A stretch of DNA of 64,000 nucleotides from Diabrotica undecimpunctata (lineage: Eukaryota > Arthropoda > Insecta > Coleoptera > Chrysomelidae), in contig NC_092803.1 in NCBI RefSeq assembly GCF_040954645.1, positions 13,021,230-13,085,229 on the forward strand, given 5' to 3'. Under the pieces are notes generated by a model. The model worked only from the letters and a program-made list of their open reading frames with translations, made no database searches and had not been told where the DNA came from. The position numbers and the translations under genes are program-made. The stretch's first letter is position 1, and the number at the start of each line of letters is the position of its first letter. Below, in pieces: positions 3,090 through 47,480 of this stretch.

Positions 3090-4245
3090 ATTCTTCTTCT
3101 TCTTCTTCTTCAAGTGCCCTCTCCGCTACGAAGTTTGGCAATCATCATTGCTATTCGTATCTTTGAAGCTGTTGCTCTAAATAATTGGTTAGATGTGCAC
3201 TGGAAACAGTCTCTTAAATTGCGCAGCCAAGATATACGTCATCTCCCCACGCTTCGTTTGCCCTGAATCTTTCCTTGGATAATTAACTGGAGCAATCGGT
3301 ACTTTTTCCCTCTCATCACATGACCAAAATATTCCAACTTTCTTCTCTTGATGGTGATCAACTCCCGTTCTTTGTTCAATCTTCGAAGAACTTCACTATT
3401 TGTTACTTCACTATTTTTGTCTGTCCAAGGTATTTTCAAAATTCTTCTGTATATCCACATTTCGAAGGCCTCTAGTTTATCAATATTGCTCCTGTTTAAA
3501 GTCCAAGTCTCTACTTTGTACAGCAGTATTGAGAGGATGTAGCATCTAACCAATCTCATTTTCAGGTTTAAGTTAATGTCATGACTTCCCAGAATATCCT
3601 TCATATTAACAAAAGCAGCTCGAGCCTTTCCAATTCTAGTTTTTATTTCCTCTGTGATGTCATTGTTGTTATTAACGCTTGTTCCCAAATATTTATATTT
3701 GTGCACCCGTTCGATTTCGTTATTGTGAATGTCCAGGTTTGCATTCAATCTTTGTTTTTTTGAAATAATCATGAATTTCGTTTTCTTGACGTTCATTGTG
3801 AACCCTTTCTCTTCACTAGCTGTGACTACCTTGTTTAAAATGGCTTGCAGGTCTTCTACTGTCTCCGCCATTAAAACCGTATCATCTGCGTATCTAATAT
3901 TACTAATGGGTTGGCCGTTAACGTTTATCCCAATCTCTTCTTCCTCCAATGCTGTCTTCATAATATCTTCCGAATAGAGATTAAATAGCATTGGTGACAG
4001 CACACATCCTTGCCTTACTCCTTTTTAATTTGAATTTCATTTTTTGTGCTATTTTCGATGCGTGAGACTGCTTTCTGATTATAATACAGAGTAGATATTA
4101 TTCTTATATCGCGAGTGTCTAACTGTTTAGCTTCCAAGATCTCTAAAAGTTGGTCATGCTTGACGTTATTAAACGCCTTGTTGTAATCAATGAAACAAGC
4201 AAATACATCTTGATTCACATCCAAACACCTCTGTGTCAAAGTCAC
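3090..4245 (-). mobile_element. LINE family A, best-preserved minus copy
   Basis: This is a reverse transcriptase in two frames, 4245-4015 and 4003-3239, separated by a one-base shift near 4018. The first carries motif A (CFIDYNKAFNNV, catalytic D). The second begins with SPMLFNLYSEDI and contains the YADD box at 3879-3892, KTKFMIISKK and KYLGTSVN. It then has the thumb/C-terminal part with LLYKVETWTLN and YFGHVMRGK. An in-frame stop near 3238 precedes the family's conserved C-terminus (WLRNLRD...LFRA...IAMMIA), and the copy ends in a (GAA)n tail at 3096-3112. Target-primed copying from an RNA 3' end explains the 5' truncation. No endonuclease domain remains here. Confidence 0.85.
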
Positions 4246-6984: not shown

Positions 6985-8303
6985 ATCATCATTGGCTTTT
7001 ACAACTCTTCGTGAGTTTTTGCCGCGTTTACTATTGCCTTCCATTGATTCCGATCCTGTGCTATTATTTCCCATGGCCTTACTTTCATCTTCTCCAGGTC
7101 TTCCCTGACTGCGTCTTTCCACCTTTTTCTAGGCCTTCCTGTCGATCTTCTACCATCTGGTCTTTCCCAAAACACATTGCTAATCAGTCTGTCGTCATCA
7201 CTCCGTACCACGTGGCCTGCCCATCTTAATCTATTGGCTTTTATGTATCTTACGATGTTTCCTTTCCCGAAGAGAGTCTCTATTTCATTGTTGTATCTGC
7301 TCCTCCATTCATTTGTCACGCTGTCCCTGCAAGGACCATATATAATTCGCAGGATTTTGCGTTCCCATACTAATAGCTTATTGATTTCTTTCTTTCTCAA
7401 TGTCCATGTTTCACTTCCATATGTCACTGCTGGTCGTATTATGGTTTTGTACATTTGGATTTTGGCACGCCTTGAGAGAAGCTTTGACCTCATTAGATGT
7501 TGAATGACAAAGAATGATTTATTCCCCGCCAGTATTCGTATTTCAACCTCCCGTTCTCCTGTGTTTTCACTGGTAATTGTTGCTCCTAGGTATTTGAATT
7601 CTTTGACCACCTCAAAATTATGATCGTTTATGGTAATGTTTTGTCTTATTCGCTGTCGTTCCTTTTTTGATACGACCATGTATTTAGTTTTTTCTTTGTT
7701 TATTTTCAGGCCCACGCTTAGTGTTGCTTCTTCAAAGTTCGATACTATATCCTTAACTTCCAGTGTTGTCTGTGCTACTGCATCTACATCATCTGCAAAT
7801 GCGAGAATAATCTTTGCTCCTCTGGCAGTTATGTCTGGTTTGACTCTGGTATAGATTTTTCGCATTGCATATTTCAATGCTAGGTTAAATAGTAATGGGG
7901 ACAGCGGGTCTCCCTGTCTGAGTCCGGTGCTTATGCCGAAAGCCTTTGAAGTTTTGCCTCCTATTCTAATTTGTGCAAAGGAATTGTTGACACACATTCG
8001 CGCAATCATTGTCAGCTTCTTTGGTACGCCTAACGCCATCATTGCACTCCTCAGTTTTAAGCGATCTATGGAATCATATGCTTGTTTGAAATCTATGAAG
8101 ATCTGGTGTACTTCTTTATTATATTCCCAATACTTTTCTAGCATTTGTCTGATAGTAAATGTTTGGTCGATTGTTGATCTTCCAGGTCTAAAGCCGCATT
8201 GGTAATCGCCAATAATTATCTCTGTATATGGCAGTAATCGTTTTAGTACAACTGAAGCTAATATCTTATATGTAGTACCGATTAGTGAGATTTGATTTTG
8301 GTC
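6985..8303 (-). mobile_element. LINE family B with 434-codon open reverse transcriptase
   Basis: A continuous minus-strand frame runs from after the stop at 8304-8306 to the natural stop at 6999. In order it has CGFRPGRSTIDQ (palm motifs 1-2), HQIFIDFKQAYDSI (motif A Asp), STGLRQGDPLSPLLFN, FADDVD at 7782-7799 (motif C), GLKINKEKTKYMVVSK, FKYLGATIT, the thumb with YGSETWTL, and the C-terminal signature LRWAGHVVRSDD and GRPRKRWKDAV, ending KTHEEL. It ends in a short (ATC)n tail at 6980-6990, as RTE-like elements do. The first in-frame Met is at 8144, but the domain extends upstream of it. The endonuclease is missing, so it is 5'-truncated yet recently active-looking. Confidence 0.9.
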
Positions 8304-20680: not shown

Positions 20681-22487
20681 TTAGTTGCAATTTTTACATA
20701 CAATAGTTTTTTCCTCTTTTCTGTGCACCTGGCATATAAATTTTTTGCAAAAAGAGCAAACGGTATTCACTTTTCTGTCACAGTTTCGCGGACACTGGTA
20801 ACAACGAGCACGTTTCTTAGCTGAATGGACGGATTGAGTTGCAACTTCGGTAGTTGGGTTTACCATTGGTATGCCACAATCTTTTAGAGCAGATTTTACA
20901 TAGGCTTTATGTTTTATATATTTCGCTCTTTTTTCCATGTTGTTTCGAGCAAGCTCAGCCCCTAATTGTAACAGGAAAATACGTCTTCGTGAAAAATTAT
21001 TTTCCTTCCAATCAGGATTTTTTTTCGATGTATAAAATATAGGCATTTAGTGCACATATGTCTATAATATTCATAAAGAGCCTGAATGGCCAACGAGCAG
21101 TTCTTCTTTTACAGGAATATTCCCTAATCAGTTTGTCGGCATTATCAACACCACCCTTGGTATTATTATAGTCTAAAATCATCAAGGGTTTGTTTTGAGA
21201 GTCTTGACAAATTATATCACTATCGTGTTGACTTGAAAGAAGATGTACCATCCTGTGTATTTTAGGTATGTACGAAACCATAGCTAATTCTTTAGTAAAA
21301 GCAAATATTGACGACTCCGCAGGTCTTTTTGTCAAACTTAGTTGTGGTGGTGTATCAGGTTTATTTTTGCGGACGGTCCCAAGTAAAGTAAGGTTTTTAG
21401 ATAAAAGATATTGAGCAAGAGGAACACTGGTAAAAAAGTTGTCAGTTGTAATTCCTCTCCAACTGCCATGATATGGTTCCACCAGATCTTTCACAACACG
21501 AAATCCCTGATTTTTCTCTATTCTACCACCTGGTAGTTTTCCAAGGTACACCTGAAGTTTTGATAAATAAGATGTTTTAACATCCGCGGCAGCCCAAATT
21601 TTTATCCCATAGCGGCAAGGTTTTGATTTTATATATTGTCTAAAAGGACACTTTCCTCTAAAACTCACTAACTGTTCGTCAACGGTTATATGTTCGTATG
21701 GTTCAAAGGCTTTGTCACAGTTAGAGACGAACATGTCCCAAATTACTCGTATCGCCGCTAACTTATCCTGTTCCTTCCGCTCCACCCTGGTCACTTTGTC
21801 ATCAAACCTCAAGAAACTCGATAATTCTTCAAATCGGTTCCTAGCGAATGCGGCTGTAAAAAATGACCGGCGTATTGAGGTGTCTGTAGACCATATCTCT
21901 CGTGTCGATTCTTTCCCACACCTTAAAGCACCAGCTTTGATAAGTGCTCCTAAAAAGCTATCCAGTTCATTGTTGGTAAGTACCGTCCACTCTTTTTTGT
22001 TATTCGGATGTTTTTCGTTCCACTCTTGATAACGCCTAACAGCTTCTTCATTAGTATGAAGGCATATGACATTCTTCATCTCTTCGGTCAAAAATAAATT
22101 GAAATAGTCTAAAAACGTGTTGGAATTTTTACTATAGTTTGTTAAGCCTGGATGTACATTTATAATATTTTTTTGTTGCCTCTTGGATCTCACGAAAGGT
22201 AGGCTATTCCACTGCATTCCAGATTTGGATGTATATGTTGGACCACTAACCTCACTAATATTATCGTCTACTTCGGTAGGTTCTGCATCTGATTCCTCGT
22301 CACTGTTGACTTCTAAATTGTCCTCAGTTTCCGAAACATTTTCCTCAAAAACATCTTGCTCTTCGCTATCTGATTCGTCGGTAATCTCATAGTCGAAATC
22401 GGAGTCTGATATCCCTTCTTCTATATTTCGGATAATTTTTTCATGTTCTTGGTCGCTTATTGTCGTTTTCATTCTCTTACGGTCCAT
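20681..22487 (-). pseudogene. piggyBac transposase, one frameshift
   Basis: The frame from ATG at 22487 runs 491 codons to 21012. It has an acidic Asp/Glu/Ser N-terminus (about residues 15-80), then the core with its three catalytic aspartates in ITVDEQLVSFRG, ITTDNFF and TKGGVDNADK. An extra A in the 8-A run (+ strand T run near 21019-21026) shifts the frame. The remainder continues at 21046-20681 as the C-terminal Cys-rich zinc domain (CYQC, C, CSFC, C, H, CKNC). The protein cuts and joins DNA at TTAA without leaving a footprint. Length without the shift is about 600 residues, normal for the family. An assembly or homopolymer error could be the cause rather than a real mutation. Confidence 0.93.
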
Positions 22488-22544
22488 TTTTCAATGTAAA
22501 CTGACGAAAAATGTTAAAAATAATAAAAATATTCTGGTGCCTCT

Positions 22545-26990: not shown

Positions 26991-27482
26991 AAAAGTTTCT
27001 TTAAGTGTCCAAGGACTTTACATAAATAAAAAATTTATCGCCTTTAGTTAAACATTCAATTAAATGTTTTTAACATTTACAATTAATTCACCTTTTACTC
27101 GTCGAAAAATGTTTTTCTGGATAATTTTCTATAAATGGAAACATAAACACCTCCTGGAAATCGGCCTTATTGCGGTAAGAATATCGATTTAGCCGCGGAT
27201 AATACTTACCTTCACCTACTAAATTAGGGATAATCTAAGGTCGATACAATTTAGAAAAGATACTTGTTTTTATATGGGTATGAATTATTAAATCAAATAG
27301 GTAATTTTGGTGTTTTGTTGTTTTTGATTTGTTTTGATTGGTAGCGTTGATTGTTGTTTTATTTTTCCATAATGATTTCTGGAATGGTTTTTTTTATTTT
27401 ATTTTATTGATAACAGTATCAACTACTTTAGGTTATTAGCTGTACTATAATTAATACAAAAATAATTAAATCTAAAGAGTAC
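26991..27482. other. No gene seen
   Basis: AT-rich flank up to the LTR boundary. Confidence 0.4.
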
Positions 27483-27766
27483 TGTAGCGTGTTTCAATAA
27501 AACCAGCGGTTCTAATGTATATAAATATATTTATTTATAAATTTACAGCACGATGATAGCTTATTAACTACGCTATAACTCATAGCAGCGCGGCTTATAT
27601 ATAAGTTATTATGTACTAGAATAATCCGGAATAGTCCACCTCTATTTCGCTTGTTTGACGGCTCGATCTTTCACCCGGTCGATACATCCGGAACCTTCGA
27701 GAACACACATCAGCGTTCTCGAGATGAAACTGTTATATGGGCTACGTTGAAAGCATGCTTATTACA
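27483..27766 (-). repeat. 3' LTR of the gypsy element
   Basis: 284 bp, beginning TGTAATAAGC on the minus strand (27766 inward) and ending CTACA at 27483, so it has the usual TG...CA with a 4-base inverted tip. A polypurine tract (AAGAGGGGAGCAG, 27767-27779) lies directly upstream, which fixes the start. It contains AATAAA-like signals near 27525. The partner LTR is missing, so insertion age cannot be read. Confidence 0.75.
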
Positions 27767-27904
27767 CTGCTCCCCTCTTAGATCTGAGCATCCCGATCAG
27801 CAACTCTATGTGTTGGCCCTGGATAGCGGAGTCTACAGGACTCTCCAGCTCTGCATGAACCCCTTAAGAAGAAATCAGTCTACTGACTTCAAAGAACACG
27901 ATCT

Positions 27905-28345
27905 TTTCAGGTTAATGCAACACACAGTAAATCATACGCCGGTTTCTCGGAAGATCACTTTAAGCATGCTTTGCTTCTGACAATCTTCCAATCCAGATTT
28001 TCTAGTGTATGTACTATCTTTGGTAAGGCCAAATTCTTGATGTCATAATTGCACACGATTTTCTTCAAATTAGTTAGAGCACGCCATATATGGTCGTAGC
28101 TTGCCTTGTCTGTATACAACTTCCTGGTCACCATATACAGCAAAGATCGAGGACTATTTTCTAATCTCAGTACTCTTCCAACTTTAGGCTACTGATTCTT
28201 TAACTCGTCCAAACGACCGAACTTCTTATAGAATATGGACGAGAATCCTTTAGACATCTCAAGATCTTTAGCAACACAGTGAGCTAGAGAGACGTTATGC
28301 GGAACACTAAAAATATCCGCTGAACTCCTTTGGTCACGCCGAATC
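27905..28345 (-). pseudogene. Macro (ADP-ribose) domain at the end of gypsy pol
   Basis: Directly behind the integrase C-terminus, on the same strand, the readings DIFSVPHNVSLAHCVAKDLE, SKGFSSIFYKKFGRLDELKN, LLYMVTRKLYTDKASYDHIW and IKNLALPKI resemble the OARD1/TARG1 class of macro domains. Those proteins bind ADP-ribose and remove it from proteins. Order and length (about 140 residues) match a whole domain. An 8-base insertion near 28325, a stop near 28190 and later shifts break it. The final Gly-rich/Asp catalytic stretch (GCGLD in TARG1) reads VHTLEN. The polypurine tract follows about 125 bp downstream, so it lies inside the element. The homology is from memory. Confidence 0.7.
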
Positions 28346-30174
28346 TAACAATCTTTCTCTCTGCGTTATTTGACATAAATTCGTTAAAGCTTGGTCGCCG
28401 GTTATCTTTGATCTCATGTTGAAGAGTTCGTGCTTCTTCTGTTTTATTTGAGCCGGCGTAAGGTGCAAAATGATTTATGTGAACTACTTTTGGTTTACCT
28501 TTAGGTAACTTCTTAATTCGGTATATTACGTCATTTGTTCTCTTTTTAATTTCATACGGATCTTCCCATTGTCTTTGCAGTTTAGGAGACAAGCCTGGAC
28601 GACGTTGTTGATTATAAAGCCAAACAAGGTCAAACTGCTTCATAGCTTTCATTTTTGAATCGAGAATCATATTGATCTTTCATTCTGTCACTAGCTAACT
28701 GAATGTGTTGTTGGGCAAGATTATAAGTGTTGCTCATTCTTAACTTCAGGCGATCGAAATATTCTTCGCTTGCAACATATTCTTCGGAAGGTCTGCAGCC
28801 AAACTCTAGGTCGCAGGGCAAACGAACTTCATGGCCTAACATCAGACAGGTTGGAGTCTGGTCTGCAGTATCATTCACGGCCGAGTGGTAGGCCATTACG
28901 AATAAATGAATGTGCTGGTCCCAATCTCTTTGATGTTTTGATACAACTTTGGATAGGTGTTCGTATGTACGTATCGTACGTTCATATGTATCGTTCGGTT
29001 TACGTCTCAACCATTTCATCTGATTGAGTATGCAGTGGTGTCGTTCTGGTCTTATTAACACCAATCAATTTATAAACGTTTTGGAAAACGGTTGACTCGA
29101 AGTTTCGCCCTTGGCCAAAGTGAATCTCCAAGGGAAAGAATTCTTTAACACGTATTTATTTCCATCATTTGTCTCTGGGAATGGACCTGCAATGTCAATT
29201 GCTACTCTTTCCATAGAACTACCAACATTGTACTGTTTCATGGGTGCTTGTTTTTTACCAACTGGACCATTACCGGTTGCACACAGTTCGCATTTCCGGC
29301 ACTATATTCTTACATCGTATTTACAGTTCACCCAATAGAACCGTTCTCAAACCTTTTACAGAGTCTTCGTAATACCAAAGTGTCCACTTTCTGCACCCTC
29401 ATGCAACTGACCCAATACTTCTGACACTTTACTTTTAGGCACAGTCAACTGAAGCTTAGATTGTGTAGCATCAGTGTTCTCAAAGATTCTATACAGAACT
29501 TTTAGTACTAGGTAATTCCATTAGTTCCAATAAGACTTGATTTCTGGACTACATGTACTAATGTCTTGCCAAGAAGGTTTTTCACTTCGACGCATCCAAT
29601 CCAATACTCTTTTTATACATGGATCATCTGCTTAAGCGTCTTGTAGCTCTTGAGGCTGTCATTGATCATTAATGACAGTGGTTGGTCTCACGGAGCATAG
29701 TAGTTCTGCTAATTTAAGACAGTGATTACAATTTTCACTGCATAACCGTCTCGAAAGAGCATCAGCATTTAAGTGAACTCTTCCAGCCCTATGTTTGATC
29801 TCGTAATCATATTCTTGTAATCGTTCTAACCATCTTGCCATCTGGCCCTCTGGATTTCGGAAGTGATCCGTACTAAGAAGGAACTTTCTGCCATACAAGT
29901 ATTTATGGAAATGCTTACAAGCCTTCACTACGCCTAGCAATTCTCTCCTGGTAATGCAATAGTTTCTTTCTAGTTTCGACAAGACTTTGCTAAAGTAAGC
30001 GATGACTCTTTCCTGTCCATCTGGGATTTAGGAGAGAACAGCTCGTATTGCCCTGTTTCTAGCATCAGTGTCCAACACAAATTTTCCTGCCTGTCTAGGG
30101 TAGCTTAAAATTGGTGCACTGATCAGAGCCATTTGTAGTTGTTCGAAAGCTTTTTGACACTCTTCACTCCATGT
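28284..30174 (-). pseudogene. gypsy pol remnant: RNase H and integrase
   Basis: RNase H (30150-29700) shows FVLDTDA, CITRRELLGVV and LLSTDH, i.e. its acidic residues, followed by YEIKHRAGRVHLNADALSRR. The integrase zinc region lies at about 29400-29280 with stops. The core has AIDIAGPF, but the next stretch is deleted near 29147 together with the second catalytic Asp, and it resumes at LEIHFGQGRNFEST. The frame 29064-28630 includes WDQHIHLFVMAYHSAVNDTA. The frame 28670-28284 carries the C-terminal PGLSPKLQRQWEDPYEIKKR module that contacts DNA. It is not functional. Confidence 0.85.
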
Positions 30175-30740
30175 TCTCCAGTTCTCCATATTTCATAAGC
30201 CTATGACCATGGAGTAAATTGATATATGATAAGAATTGGTCAAGTTGCCTGTTAATTCCTGTAAAACATACCAGTACATCGTCTATGTATCTCCACCAAT
30301 ATAAAAACTGTATGAATACGAGATGTTCTGAAATGTTTGTTTCTAGATAATCCATAAAAAGCTTAGAATATTACCCATTATAAGTACTGCACTGTTATTT
30401 GTATATATTTGATTATTAAATTCAACAAATTTAATTTTTACGTTTATACAAATTTTCCAGAAGATGTAAAATTTTAGATGTAATGATTGGATTTGTAATA
30501 TTATTGTCTAACAGGTTTTTACTAGAACAAATATTTCTATAGGAGGAATACAAGGAAAAAGATTTTTTACGTCAAATGAAATTAATTTGGAGTTGTTAAT
30601 TAATTGAAAATGTGAAAATTTAGTGCATTCTATAACAATCTCAGTTTTTTTTAAGTTTATATGGTGGAGCTATATAAAAAGAAACTAAAGGTCTTATTGG
30701 GTCATCAAATTACGTAGGGAATGTACTAGCATACTAATTT
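30175..30740 (-). mobile_element. Penelope-like reverse transcriptase fragment
   Basis: The minus frame 30355-30164 reads LVFIQFLYWWRYIDDVLVCF. The catalytic YIDD box is at 30278-30289 and GINRQLDQFLSYINLLH follows, a signature of Penelope-like polymerases. Upstream sequence to about 30740 is compatible but too decayed to read. It joins the gypsy fragment at 30174. Confidence 0.7.
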
Positions 30741-30769
30741 TTAAATTAGCAAATGAACGAATAAACGAA

Positions 30770-31160
30770 AGCCCTGAAATTAGTATTTTCACCATCTGGT
30801 CGATTGTATATACAGGTAAGATATCAACAAAATAGCCAAACACATAAAAAAGAAAGAAATAACACTAGCCCCAAAAACAAACAACTTGGGCAAATATATT
30901 AAGAACAATAAGAGAAAAAAAATTACACAGTGGTACATCGGTCAAACTGTTAGAACTTTTAATAAACAGATAGTAGAACACAAAAGGGATTTCAATAATA
31001 GAAAAACAGATTCTACATACGCACTTCACCTTATTTATCATAATCATTCTTTTAATAATTAATTTAAAATTCTTCACATTTAAAATAAAGGCCTTAAGCT
31101 ATCTTTTTTAGAAAGTATAAAAATTAACAAATTAAAAATACAGACATGATTACTAGTTAC
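30770..31160 (+). mobile_element. Penelope-like GIY-YIG nuclease remnant, opposite strand
   Basis: The plus strand reads QWYIGQTVRTFNKQIVEHKR with YIG at 30934-30942 and the catalytic-type Glu in VEHK. TDSTYALHLIYHNHSF and LSFLESIKI follow. The GIY half is damaged. This domain normally follows the polymerase on the same strand, but here the polymerase fragment is on the minus strand. An inversion or two separate insertions are therefore needed. Confidence 0.7.
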
Positions 31161-42303: not shown

Positions 42304-43300
42304 CATCATCATCATCATTCTCGGCATATTCTACCTATTATGGTGCAGCCTCCCTGACATAGTCATTCTTTATTTCTGCTCACGATTGTCTAAAATTCAC
42401 TTTTCTGTGCCATGTTGTTGACATTAAAAGAATAGCCGGAACAAATTGGAAATATGTTGCTCAGGATAGAGACCGATGGAAGGAGTTGGGAGAGGCCTAT
42501 GTCAAAACATGGACGACAGAAGGCTAAGAAGAAGAAGAAGAAGAAGTGCCATGTTGTACTGAGTTGTTTCCTTATGTCATAGGCCGATCTTAAATTTGGA
42601 CATCTTCTTGGTCTCTTGACGCCTCTTTAATAGATATCACAGTGTAATTCTAGTGTACCACCTATTGGCAGTTCTATTCTTTTTTGATCTTTCTTTGTCT
42701 ATACCTAGCATGCATCGCTTCATTGACCTTTGAGTGACTTTGTGTTTTGATATCATCCCTTTCTTTAGTGTCCAAGTTTCGCAGCCGTATGTCATGATTG
42801 GTAGTATACACTGATCAAATGCGTTTTTCTTCAGGTGGATTGGTATCTCCTATTTGAATATAACTGCATTTCTACCAAAAAATGCCCAAGCCAGTTTCAT
42901 TCTGTTGTTAATTTCTGGAAGTAAGGAGCCAGATTTATGTGTTAATTGTCCAAGGTATACATAATTGTCTACTGTTCCAAGTGCAGTTTGGTTTATTATT
43001 ACATCTTGGACATCCACTAGCTTGTTGTACATGGTTTTTGTTTTTTGTCAAGTTCATTTTTAGGCCAACTTTATTGGTAGCTACATTTAGGTCGCTTACA
43101 AGTTCTTGTAGTTCTGCAGGATTATTAGCAATCAGAACGATGTCGTCTGCAAATCTTAGATGGCTGAGGTATTCTCCATCAACGGTTATTCCTTTGTTCA
43201 GCCAGTTCAATTTACTGAATATATTTTCTACAGTTGCAGTGAAGACCTTTGGTGATATTGCGTTTCCTTGTTTGACGCCTCTGGTAGTGGGCCTTAAAAA
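42304..43300 (-). mobile_element. RTE-type LINE fragment, split by a younger LINE
   Basis: It has an (ATC)n tail at 42306-42320. Minus frames 43210-42935 and 43032-42850 give NKGITVDGEYLSHLRFADDI (catalytic box at 43142-43154), LNVATNKVGLKMNL, NYVYLGQLTHKSGSLLPEIN and AWAFFGRN. The VYLGQ and FADD forms point to the RTE/BovB group. The element is interrupted at 42421-42545 by another LINE copy flanked by a 12-bp duplication of its sequence. Confidence 0.75.
42421..42545 (+). mobile_element. Young 5'-truncated BovB-like LINE insertion
   Basis: 125 bp encoding only the last residues (KRIAGTNWKYVAQDRDRWKE, GEAYVKTWTTEG, stop) and a (GAA)n tail of about 20 bases. It is flanked by the perfect 12-bp direct repeat GTGCCATGTTGT at 42409-42420 and 42546-42557, a target duplication. 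The intact flanks and open frame show a recent insertion relative to its host copy. Confidence 0.88.
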
Positions 43301-43579
43301 AGTATTAATACATATATAAAAAGGATAAACATTTTTACTCGTTAATGAATAAGTACCAAAAATACTTATATGACATAAACAACAAGGATTTAGAAGTGGA
43401 AGTTCTGGTAACGACGCGGTCTTTGTAGTCAGTCAAATAGTCGCCCAGTGTCGATTCATTTTTATTCACCAAACTTTTTTGGTCACTGTTTATTAAATCT
43501 TCAAATTGTAATGGTAGATGAACAAGCAAAATAATTAGCTTATTACTATGATTATTACTTATGCTTTCTATATTATAAC

Positions 43580-46489: not shown

Positions 46490-47480
46490 ATATTGACAAC
46501 CAAGATCTGAAAATAATTAGAAGTCACTACTGGAATCAGACAGTAAATCTCAGAGTTAAAGGTGAACACATTGACTATGTGAAAATCATGCGTGGAGTGA
46601 GGCAAGGCTGCATTTTGTCTCTTCTAATCTTCAATCTCTGAAAGAATATTTATCGAAGCGTTGCACGAAACTGAAAAAGCTATTCTACTAAATAGTTACC
46701 AGCTAAACAACATCAGATATGCAGATGATACCATAGTATTTGCAGACAACTTAGAAGATCTACCAGTTCTTATGAACAAAATCACGTATTACAGTCAACA
46801 ATATGGACTCAATATAAACGTTAAGAAGACAAAGCTTATGATAATTAGCAAGAAAAGGTCAACTCTACGTCAACCAATCCCCGTAGAAAGAGTGACGCAC
46901 TACAACTACCTCAGCACCATAATAAATGAAGAATGGACCAACAACCAGGAGATTAGAGCACGCATCGGAAAAGCTAGATCCACCTTCAATCGGATGGGGG
47001 CCTTCTCCAAGAGTCACAACCTCTCTCTTGATACAAAAGTAAGAATGCTGCGATGCTACGTCTTCTCTGTCCTTTTTTATGGTGTTGAATCGTGGACCTT
47101 GAACGAAGATATGTGCAGAAAACTGGAAGCATTTGAGATGTGGCTATAACGGAGAATGCTTAAGATCCCGTGGACTGACCGAGTCACAAATGAGGAGGTC
47201 CTTAAAAGAACGAATAAGAACCGAGAGGTACTGACCACCATCAAATCCTGAAAGTTACAGTTCTTCGGACATATTATGCGAAATGAATCCAGATATGCTC
47301 TCCTTCAAGCCATCAGGCAAAGAAAAATATTTGGAAAACGAGGTCCAGGAAGAAGAAGAACATCTTGGTTAAAGAACCATAGAATCTGGTTCAATACAAC
47401 ATCTTTGCAGCTTTTCCGTGCTGCTGCAGATAAGATAAAGATTGCGATGATGATCGCCAACATTCGTAACGGATAGGCAC
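46490..47480 (+). mobile_element. LINE family A, plus-strand copy
   Basis: It starts near motif A loss with RGVRQGCILSLLIFNL (46600-46640). After a shift it gives NSYQLNNIRYADDTIVFADN (YADD at 46718-46729), LNINVKKTKLMIISKK and ARIGKARSTFNRM. Next come CYVFSVLFYGVESWTLN and EAFEMWL, a stop at 47147-47149, RVTNEEVLKRTNKNREV, a stop at 47249, then FFGHIMRNESRYALLQ, GKRGPGRRRTSWLKNH and NIRNG. The GAAAAAGAAG tail begins near 47486. Fewer lesions than the minus copy at 965. Confidence 0.85.

Follow-up and report, generated by a model that had tools for sequence, protein, structure and literature searches.

A TARG1-type macrodomain and a CCCH finger behind the integrase of a Ty3/gypsy retrotransposon lineage in Diabrotica

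Introduction

Chromoviruses are gypsy elements that carry a chromodomain behind the integrase. The closest precedent for the element considered here is the AlkB domain (2-ODD) of orchid Ty3/Gypsy elements, which PMC9289625 describes as an RNA demethylase active in vitro. Macrodomains have been described in viral polyproteins (PMC9503650) and in cellular enzymes, among them TARG1 (OARD1, C6orf130), which belongs with bacterial DarG to the ALC1-like class and whose catalytic dyad is given as Lys84 and Asp125 (PMC9411070), residue 125 being written as Glu125 in PMC7050489. We describe a 64 000-nucleotide stretch of the genome of Diabrotica undecimpunctata (contig NC_092803.1, positions 13,021,230–13,085,229; the window hereafter means this whole stretch), whose minus strand carries, at 30027–27483, a Ty3/gypsy element represented by its 3′ part, with RNase H, a broken integrase, a GPY/F module, a macrodomain, the remnant of a CCCH finger, a polypurine tract and one long terminal repeat (LTR). 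That the element belongs to a Ty3/gypsy lineage whose Pol ends in GPY/F followed by a macrodomain of TARG1 type (ALC1-like class) and then by a CCCH finger is, in our view, almost certain.

Results

The original prediction placed a TARG1/OARD1-type domain behind a gypsy-lineage integrase and proposed a search for intact copies with both domains in one open reading frame between paired LTRs; the fusion is borne out by one open frame in many copies, and such intact copies were found in the host genome, an assembly of 1.743 Gb in 2867 contigs. When the DNA of 27905–28345 was used as query, the best 40 of 1565 first-look candidates were scored and, beyond the window copy, gave 39 copies at about 91% identity on many contigs (the first-look counts of the several searches, 1565, 4786, 5504 and 9342, are not copy numbers). 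A protein search with OARD1 added 19 loci to 30 taken from this search (one of them the window copy), and among these 49 copies GPY/F was present in 48, the CCCH finger in 48 and an LTR in 46, all collinear with the macrodomain in 44; an exact 15-base string of polypurine tract and TGT recurred in 46. In 10 of the 30 DNA-picked loci a stretch of 687 residues, from the locus edge to the stop, is fully open and holds macrodomain and integrase in one frame, and an existing copy matches OARD1 without gaps over about 136 residues (E 1e-28). The OARD1 protein search scored 150 sites, one of which is a host OARD1-like gene (L035). Only two of the 149 non-host sites have an internal stop within the match, and their stop-to-stop frames measure 1413/1414 residues at 33 sites, at least 1700 at seven, 920/921 at 17 and less than 500 at 41; 19 of the 149 were cut out, the same-family status of the others being judged by score and frame length.

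Because the 49 copies were selected via the macrodomain, they are uninformative on copies that lack it, and the complementary control starts from the integrase. The query, P0001, is an integrase end on a JGI contig in which GPY/F is followed by a short tail with no macrodomain (72% identity over 44% of the query by which it was found). In the host genome 150 sites of 9342 first-look candidates were scored with it, at 64–65% identity, and each match ends at residue 161–167 of 187. For 20 of the 150, hand-picked across the ranking and mostly of non-standard frame length, 701 downstream bases were fetched, and all 20 carry macrodomain and CCCH matches behind the integrase, the macrodomain being split by a frame change in five and matching residues 1–63 only in one. 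The 20 overlap with the earlier set by two elements or more, those of L008 and L043, and the control covers the best-matching integrase sites of the genome. Neither the lack of a macro-family match nor family copies without the domain, the two outcomes that the original prediction held to tell against it, arose in what was tested, a TARG1/OARD1-type domain lying behind the integrase in intact copies between paired LTRs and at each opened integrase site. P0001 itself shows that a related macro-less integrase exists, which would fit a gain of the module between GPY/F and the polypurine tract.

In the window copy, 28344–28192 (minus) matches residues 13–55 of human OARD1/TARG1 (PDB chain 4j5q_A; phmmer E 8e-8) and 28188–27958 (minus) matches residues 58–127 of chain 4j5r_A (E 9e-5). 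The two pieces adjoin and share one frame, separated by a single stop, and none of 1000 shuffles scored as high as either. A C-terminal piece in another frame (28042–27935, minus), which was equalled by 27 of 1000 shuffles and is not significant alone, resembles the domain end of genomic copies. A search of Pfam and NCBIfam with the window pieces gave one weak DarG match (E 0.0041). The integrase C-terminal module lies directly upstream in a different frame; thus the domain is, as predicted, complete but broken and on the integrase strand, while integrase end and macrodomain at present lie in differing frames. A stop ends the macrodomain frame at the same place in three of the 30 DNA-picked copies, namely the window copy (28189–28191), L006 and L028.

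The architecture of the family was pieced together from different copies and not from one read-through element. Protease, reverse transcriptase and RNase H occur in that order in open upstream pieces of two other elements, and a further copy shows zinc finger, core and GPY/F of the integrase; often one open frame of 1413/1414 residues runs with protease, reverse transcriptase and RNase H upstream of integrase, macrodomain and CCCH finger. Paired LTRs were found in 10 of the 12 elements tried, with none at the expected 5′ site for L041 and L020. The pairs are 99.17–100% identical, five of the ten at 100%, over aligned lengths of 271–284 bp, one alignment having 39 gap columns. Eight of the ten are flanked by a perfect 4-bp target duplication, and in nine a TGG, which may mark a primer binding site but to which no tRNA was matched, lies one or two bases downstream of the 5′ LTR. 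This pol order, together with paired LTRs and a short target duplication, is that of Ty3/gypsy elements. The near-identical LTR pairs, the target duplications and the open pol pieces indicate that the family has been active recently. L007, L008 and L015 differ mutually by only 7–9 bases over 3.4 kb including flanks, and so may be duplicates of one insertion. The CCCH finger (C-x7/8-C-x5-C-x3-H) of intact copies scores 26.2 and 29.0 bits against PF00642 (cut-off 20.5), and no chromodomain appeared when the C-terminal pieces of L020 were compared with Pfam at E up to 10. Outside their LTRs, L034 and L039 have further repeated sequence (505 and 288 bp) on either side, which resembles a tandem or nested arrangement of elements.

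A shorter derivative of the element also exists. The integrase core is absent from eight of the 30 DNA-picked copies (L009, L010, L011, L022, L023, L025, L030 and L034), and translation of L009 and L022 gave a gag-like part in frame with the integrase zinc finger, the integrase C-terminus, the macrodomain and the CCCH finger; the gag part has only weak Pfam matches, to Ty3_capsid (E 0.026) and to Retrotrans_gag (E 0.044). A core match is also absent from three of the other 19 copies, among them L042, which has no GPY/F either. Since the LTR pairs of five gag-macro derivatives are 99.63–100% identical, the derivative has spread recently, presumably with the help of full elements. The 17 sites of the OARD1 search with frames of 920/921 residues may belong to it.

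Named relatives were found in D. virgifera (P0003, P0006 and P0008), D. undecimpunctata (P0004) and D. balteata (P0005), annotated as OARD1-like, uncharacterised or unnamed. Among the gypsy macrodomains and these relatives, all Diabrotica sequences that span the position of TARG1 Lys84, those of D. virgifera and D. balteata included, have Arg there, so the change probably predates the split of these species. An ENA contig supplied a more distant relative, P0007, in which linker, macrodomain and CCCH finger keep their order at 44% identity; used as query, P0007 matched its best 150 sites in the host genome at 42–45% identity, and among these there was no closer family of its type. No macrodomain relative came from viral-contig scans with P0001, the macrodomain piece and profile A1, which gave one 15-residue match (L001), nor from genome-contig scans with the integrase piece and P0007. 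The gypsy macrodomain is 47% identical to that of P0007, 38–39% to human OARD1 and 37% to the host gene, and the last value rules out a recent capture from the present host gene. In an unrooted macrodomain tree, which has no outgroup and carries a long-branch warning, one split (97/93) sets human OARD1 and the host gene against P0007 and the gypsy macrodomains. The host gene (G000:C3:100934206–100934631, minus) has a macrodomain 48–50% identical to the human one, with Lys84 kept, inside an uninterrupted frame of 760 residues, in which a long low-complexity region precedes the domain and more sequence follows it on the C-terminal side.

The predicted model of the gypsy macrodomain is TARG1-like in fold and superposes on TARG1 at 0.9 Å, with a predicted local distance difference test score (pLDDT) of 73–95 by block over residues 11–150; for the CCCH tail, with pLDDT under 50, we make no claim of a fold. 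Compared with BFVD, the P0002 model found Kadipiro virus VP8 as top viral match (E 3e-16, 36% identity), with polyproteins of thrips-associated viruses next. For the active site, 17 of the 49 copies have no open frame of at least 240 residues from GPY/F on and four of the remaining 32 differ in length, which left 28 for comparison (27 distinct). The column of Asp125, the residue that we take human OARD1 to have there, holds Asp in 21 and Glu in seven of these, and all four ligands of the CCCH finger are retained in all 28. Lys84 and Asp125 do not occur together in the Diabrotica copies; P0007 and the host gene keep both, together with the GCGLD loop.

The macrodomain part is under purifying selection. 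Its ratio of nonsynonymous to synonymous changes per site is 0.195 for variants shared by at least two sequences and 0.815 for singletons (0.188 and 0.901 in the DNA-picked copies alone); shared variants number nine nonsynonymous and 13 synonymous (binomial p between 0.0003 and 0.004 as the transition weight goes from 1 to 4) and singletons 27 and nine (shared versus singleton, Fisher p 0.013). Constraint on active copies together with decay of each copy once it has inserted would give such a pattern. For the integrase end with linker the ratios are 0.320 (shared) and 0.662 (singletons), the shared deficit being weaker (eight versus seven, p 0.04 to 0.10), and for the CCCH tail they are 0.773 and 0.435.

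Around the macrodomain, the window element begins upstream with an RNase H remnant of gypsy pol at 29662–30027 (minus; PF17917 E 4.6e-19, PF17919 E 8.7e-15). Upstream of this only a weak RVT_1 piece was seen (E 0.029), so the copy is truncated or interrupted. The zinc-binding and core parts of the broken integrase occupy 28633–29301 (minus; pieces 29301–29068 and 29064–28633); they gave no Pfam match at E ≤ 1 and were assigned by alignment of the window copy (L005) with a genomic copy (83–87% DNA identity), an intact copy having Integrase_H2C2 and rve at the matching position. The integrase C-terminal GPY/F module (p58_C, SH3-like) with linker follows at 28287–28679 (minus; PF22938 E 7.9e-10, over the cut-off; PF24626 E 3.2e-5, under it). 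Behind the macrodomain pieces (28192–28344, 27958–28188 and 27935–28042) come the degenerate CCCH remnant at 27781–27879 (minus), an open piece compared by eye with intact tails, in which some zinc ligands are lost and which was absent from the original prediction; the polypurine tract at 27767–27779 (minus), read from the sequence and from the family; and the 3′ LTR of 284 bp (TG...CA) at 27483–27766 (minus), its ends set by likeness to paired LTRs of genomic copies. A second LTR copy is absent from the window by blastn of the LTR and of 27400–31000. Elsewhere in the window, a 492-residue open frame at 21015–22490 (minus) encodes a piggyBac-type transposase domain (DDE_Tnp_1_7, E 1.8e-77), and RVT_1 matches over the cut-off lie at 3242–4024, 7002–8303 and 42938–43432 (minus) and at 46628–47146 (plus); with these further reverse-transcriptase fragments the window is rich in retroelements. 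Rfam gave no match in the window at gathering score.

Discussion

We consider it probable, though well short of assured, that the window element is a decayed member of a Diabrotica Ty3/gypsy lineage, high in copy number and recently active, whose Pol C-terminus, a macrodomain followed by a CCCH finger, binds ADP-ribose in the integration complex; taken by itself, that binding role in the integration complex falls a little below an even chance. The module would be made as the C-terminus of integrase or Pol and, by its position behind GPY/F, would stay on the integrase unless Pol is cleaved between the two, and would thus sit in the integration complex. There the macrodomain may bind ADP-ribose on host chromatin proteins, on PARP-modified DNA ends or on element nucleic acid, and the CCCH finger may contribute an RNA or DNA contact. 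Constraint combined with an altered catalytic site makes a binding role (targeting or shielding) or altered chemistry more likely in the Diabrotica branch than classical TARG1 hydrolysis; hydrolysis is likely in the P0007 branch, where Lys84 and GCGLD are retained. Integration targeting, shielding from host ADP-ribosylation and packaging mediated by the finger are uses that we infer as conceivable. More tentatively, and by analogy with the chromodomains that may steer chromoviruses, the TARG1-derived macrodomain, with its hydrolase chemistry altered or lost in Diabrotica, and the CCCH finger may form an ADP-ribose-sensing integrase that steers integration to ADP-ribosylated chromatin or DNA-repair sites, P0007-like relatives acting as active erasers on element nucleic acid.

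Several points weigh against this explanation. The Pfam Macro check that the original prediction had proposed gave no match for the window pieces, and even an intact genomic copy reaches just 16.6 bits against PF01661 (cut-off 22). Since all searches return best matches, intact copies are over-represented. The Lys84 column holds Arg in all 28 open copies, and the GCG loop reads GHA in 27 and GHV in one, so classical hydrolase activity is doubtful in the Diabrotica branch and, Lys84 being lost, we class the domain as a TARG1-type fold and not as a TARG1 hydrolase; with both replaced, ADP-ribose binding in Diabrotica is likewise a prediction. The CCCH tail, with 15 nonsynonymous and five synonymous shared variants, shows no constraint apart from its ligands, the selection counts come from few variants in related sequences with open copies picked by similarity, and cleavage of Pol may free the module from the integrase.

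A different role, in line with the antagonism of host defence that the original prediction put forward, is one that we regard as rather unlikely although not strongly so: a counter-defence eraser would protect transposition by stripping the ADP-ribose that PARP-type enzymes of the host place on the RNA, cDNA ends or proteins of the element. Both proteins and nucleic-acid ends are substrates of TARG1, viral macrodomains counter host PARPs, and ADP-ribosylation has been suggested to mark hazardous RNAs such as transposon-derived ones (review, PMC7050489); Kadipiro virus VP8, which heads the viral structural matches, is a protein of an insect virus, and P0007 keeps Lys84 and GCGLD. The replacement of Lys84 in every open Diabrotica copy, and likewise in those relatives from D. 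virgifera and D. balteata that span the position, argues against such activity, but it is no proof of inactivity, because a class member with Gln at this position is active on DNA (PMC9411070). Nor did a defence of this sort against retroelements come to light in insects here, where none was tested for.

It is improbable that macrodomain and finger were captured once and have since been carried as a passenger without a role. The altered catalytic residues, the little-constrained CCCH tail and the short gag-macro derivative, copies of which spread with large parts lost, would suit a passenger; yet the macrodomain aligns with OARD1 without gaps, its shared nonsynonymous variants are below expectation, linker, macrodomain and finger are kept at 44% identity in P0007, and the domain is still in frame in the gag-macro derivative itself. 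That it is a chance neighbour, or a processed host OARD1 copy, beside an LTR fragment agrees only with the fact that the window copy is broken and its frames differ, and is rejected as next to inconceivable, given the 39 further copies at about 91% on many contigs (among the best 40 of 1565 candidates), the 687 residues in one frame with the integrase in 10 of 30 loci, the identity of just 37% to the host OARD1-like gene, and the macrodomain at all 20 opened integrase sites.

If the lineage does carry an ADP-ribose-binding Pol C-terminus, ADP-ribose signalling, with its parts in DNA repair and antiviral defence, would be tied directly to the integration of an animal retrotransposon. Gypsy elements contribute to genome-size differences in Diabrotica (PMC8982398). 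It becomes testable whether the host marks retroelement nucleic acid with ADP-ribose and whether the element reads or erases that mark, and, because the family is young and numerous in a pest beetle and its copies are often intact, maps of insertion sites could test targeting.

Like the chromoviruses, the lineage has a domain of mark-reading type at the integrase C-terminus behind GPY/F; it differs from them in having a macrodomain and a CCCH finger, without a chromodomain match, and in that its targeting is our supposition. With the orchid AlkB elements it shares the capture, by a gypsy lineage, of an enzyme domain whose target is a nucleic-acid or signalling mark, but those belong to plants, are 25 kb long and encode the domain in a further reading frame (PMC9289625). 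Domain capture by LTR elements is known; a macrodomain at the integrase end in an animal is new as far as we searched the open-licence literature, where no description of a macrodomain in an LTR retrotransposon was found, judged mostly by titles and the beginnings of abstracts, where section 12 of PMC9289625 does not name it among its domains, and where a search of the main text of PMC9503650 for 'retrotransposon', 'retroelement' and 'gypsy' returned none of these terms. In viruses the macrodomain is likewise embedded in a replication polyprotein, though its carriers are DNA and RNA viruses (PMC9503650), and insect-virus polyproteins are among the structural matches to the predicted gypsy model. 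From TARG1 and bacterial DarG the gypsy macrodomain differs in being fused behind a retrotransposon integrase and accompanied by a CCCH finger, and the Diabrotica branch departs further from TARG1 in its change of Lys84 to Arg and of GCG to GHA.
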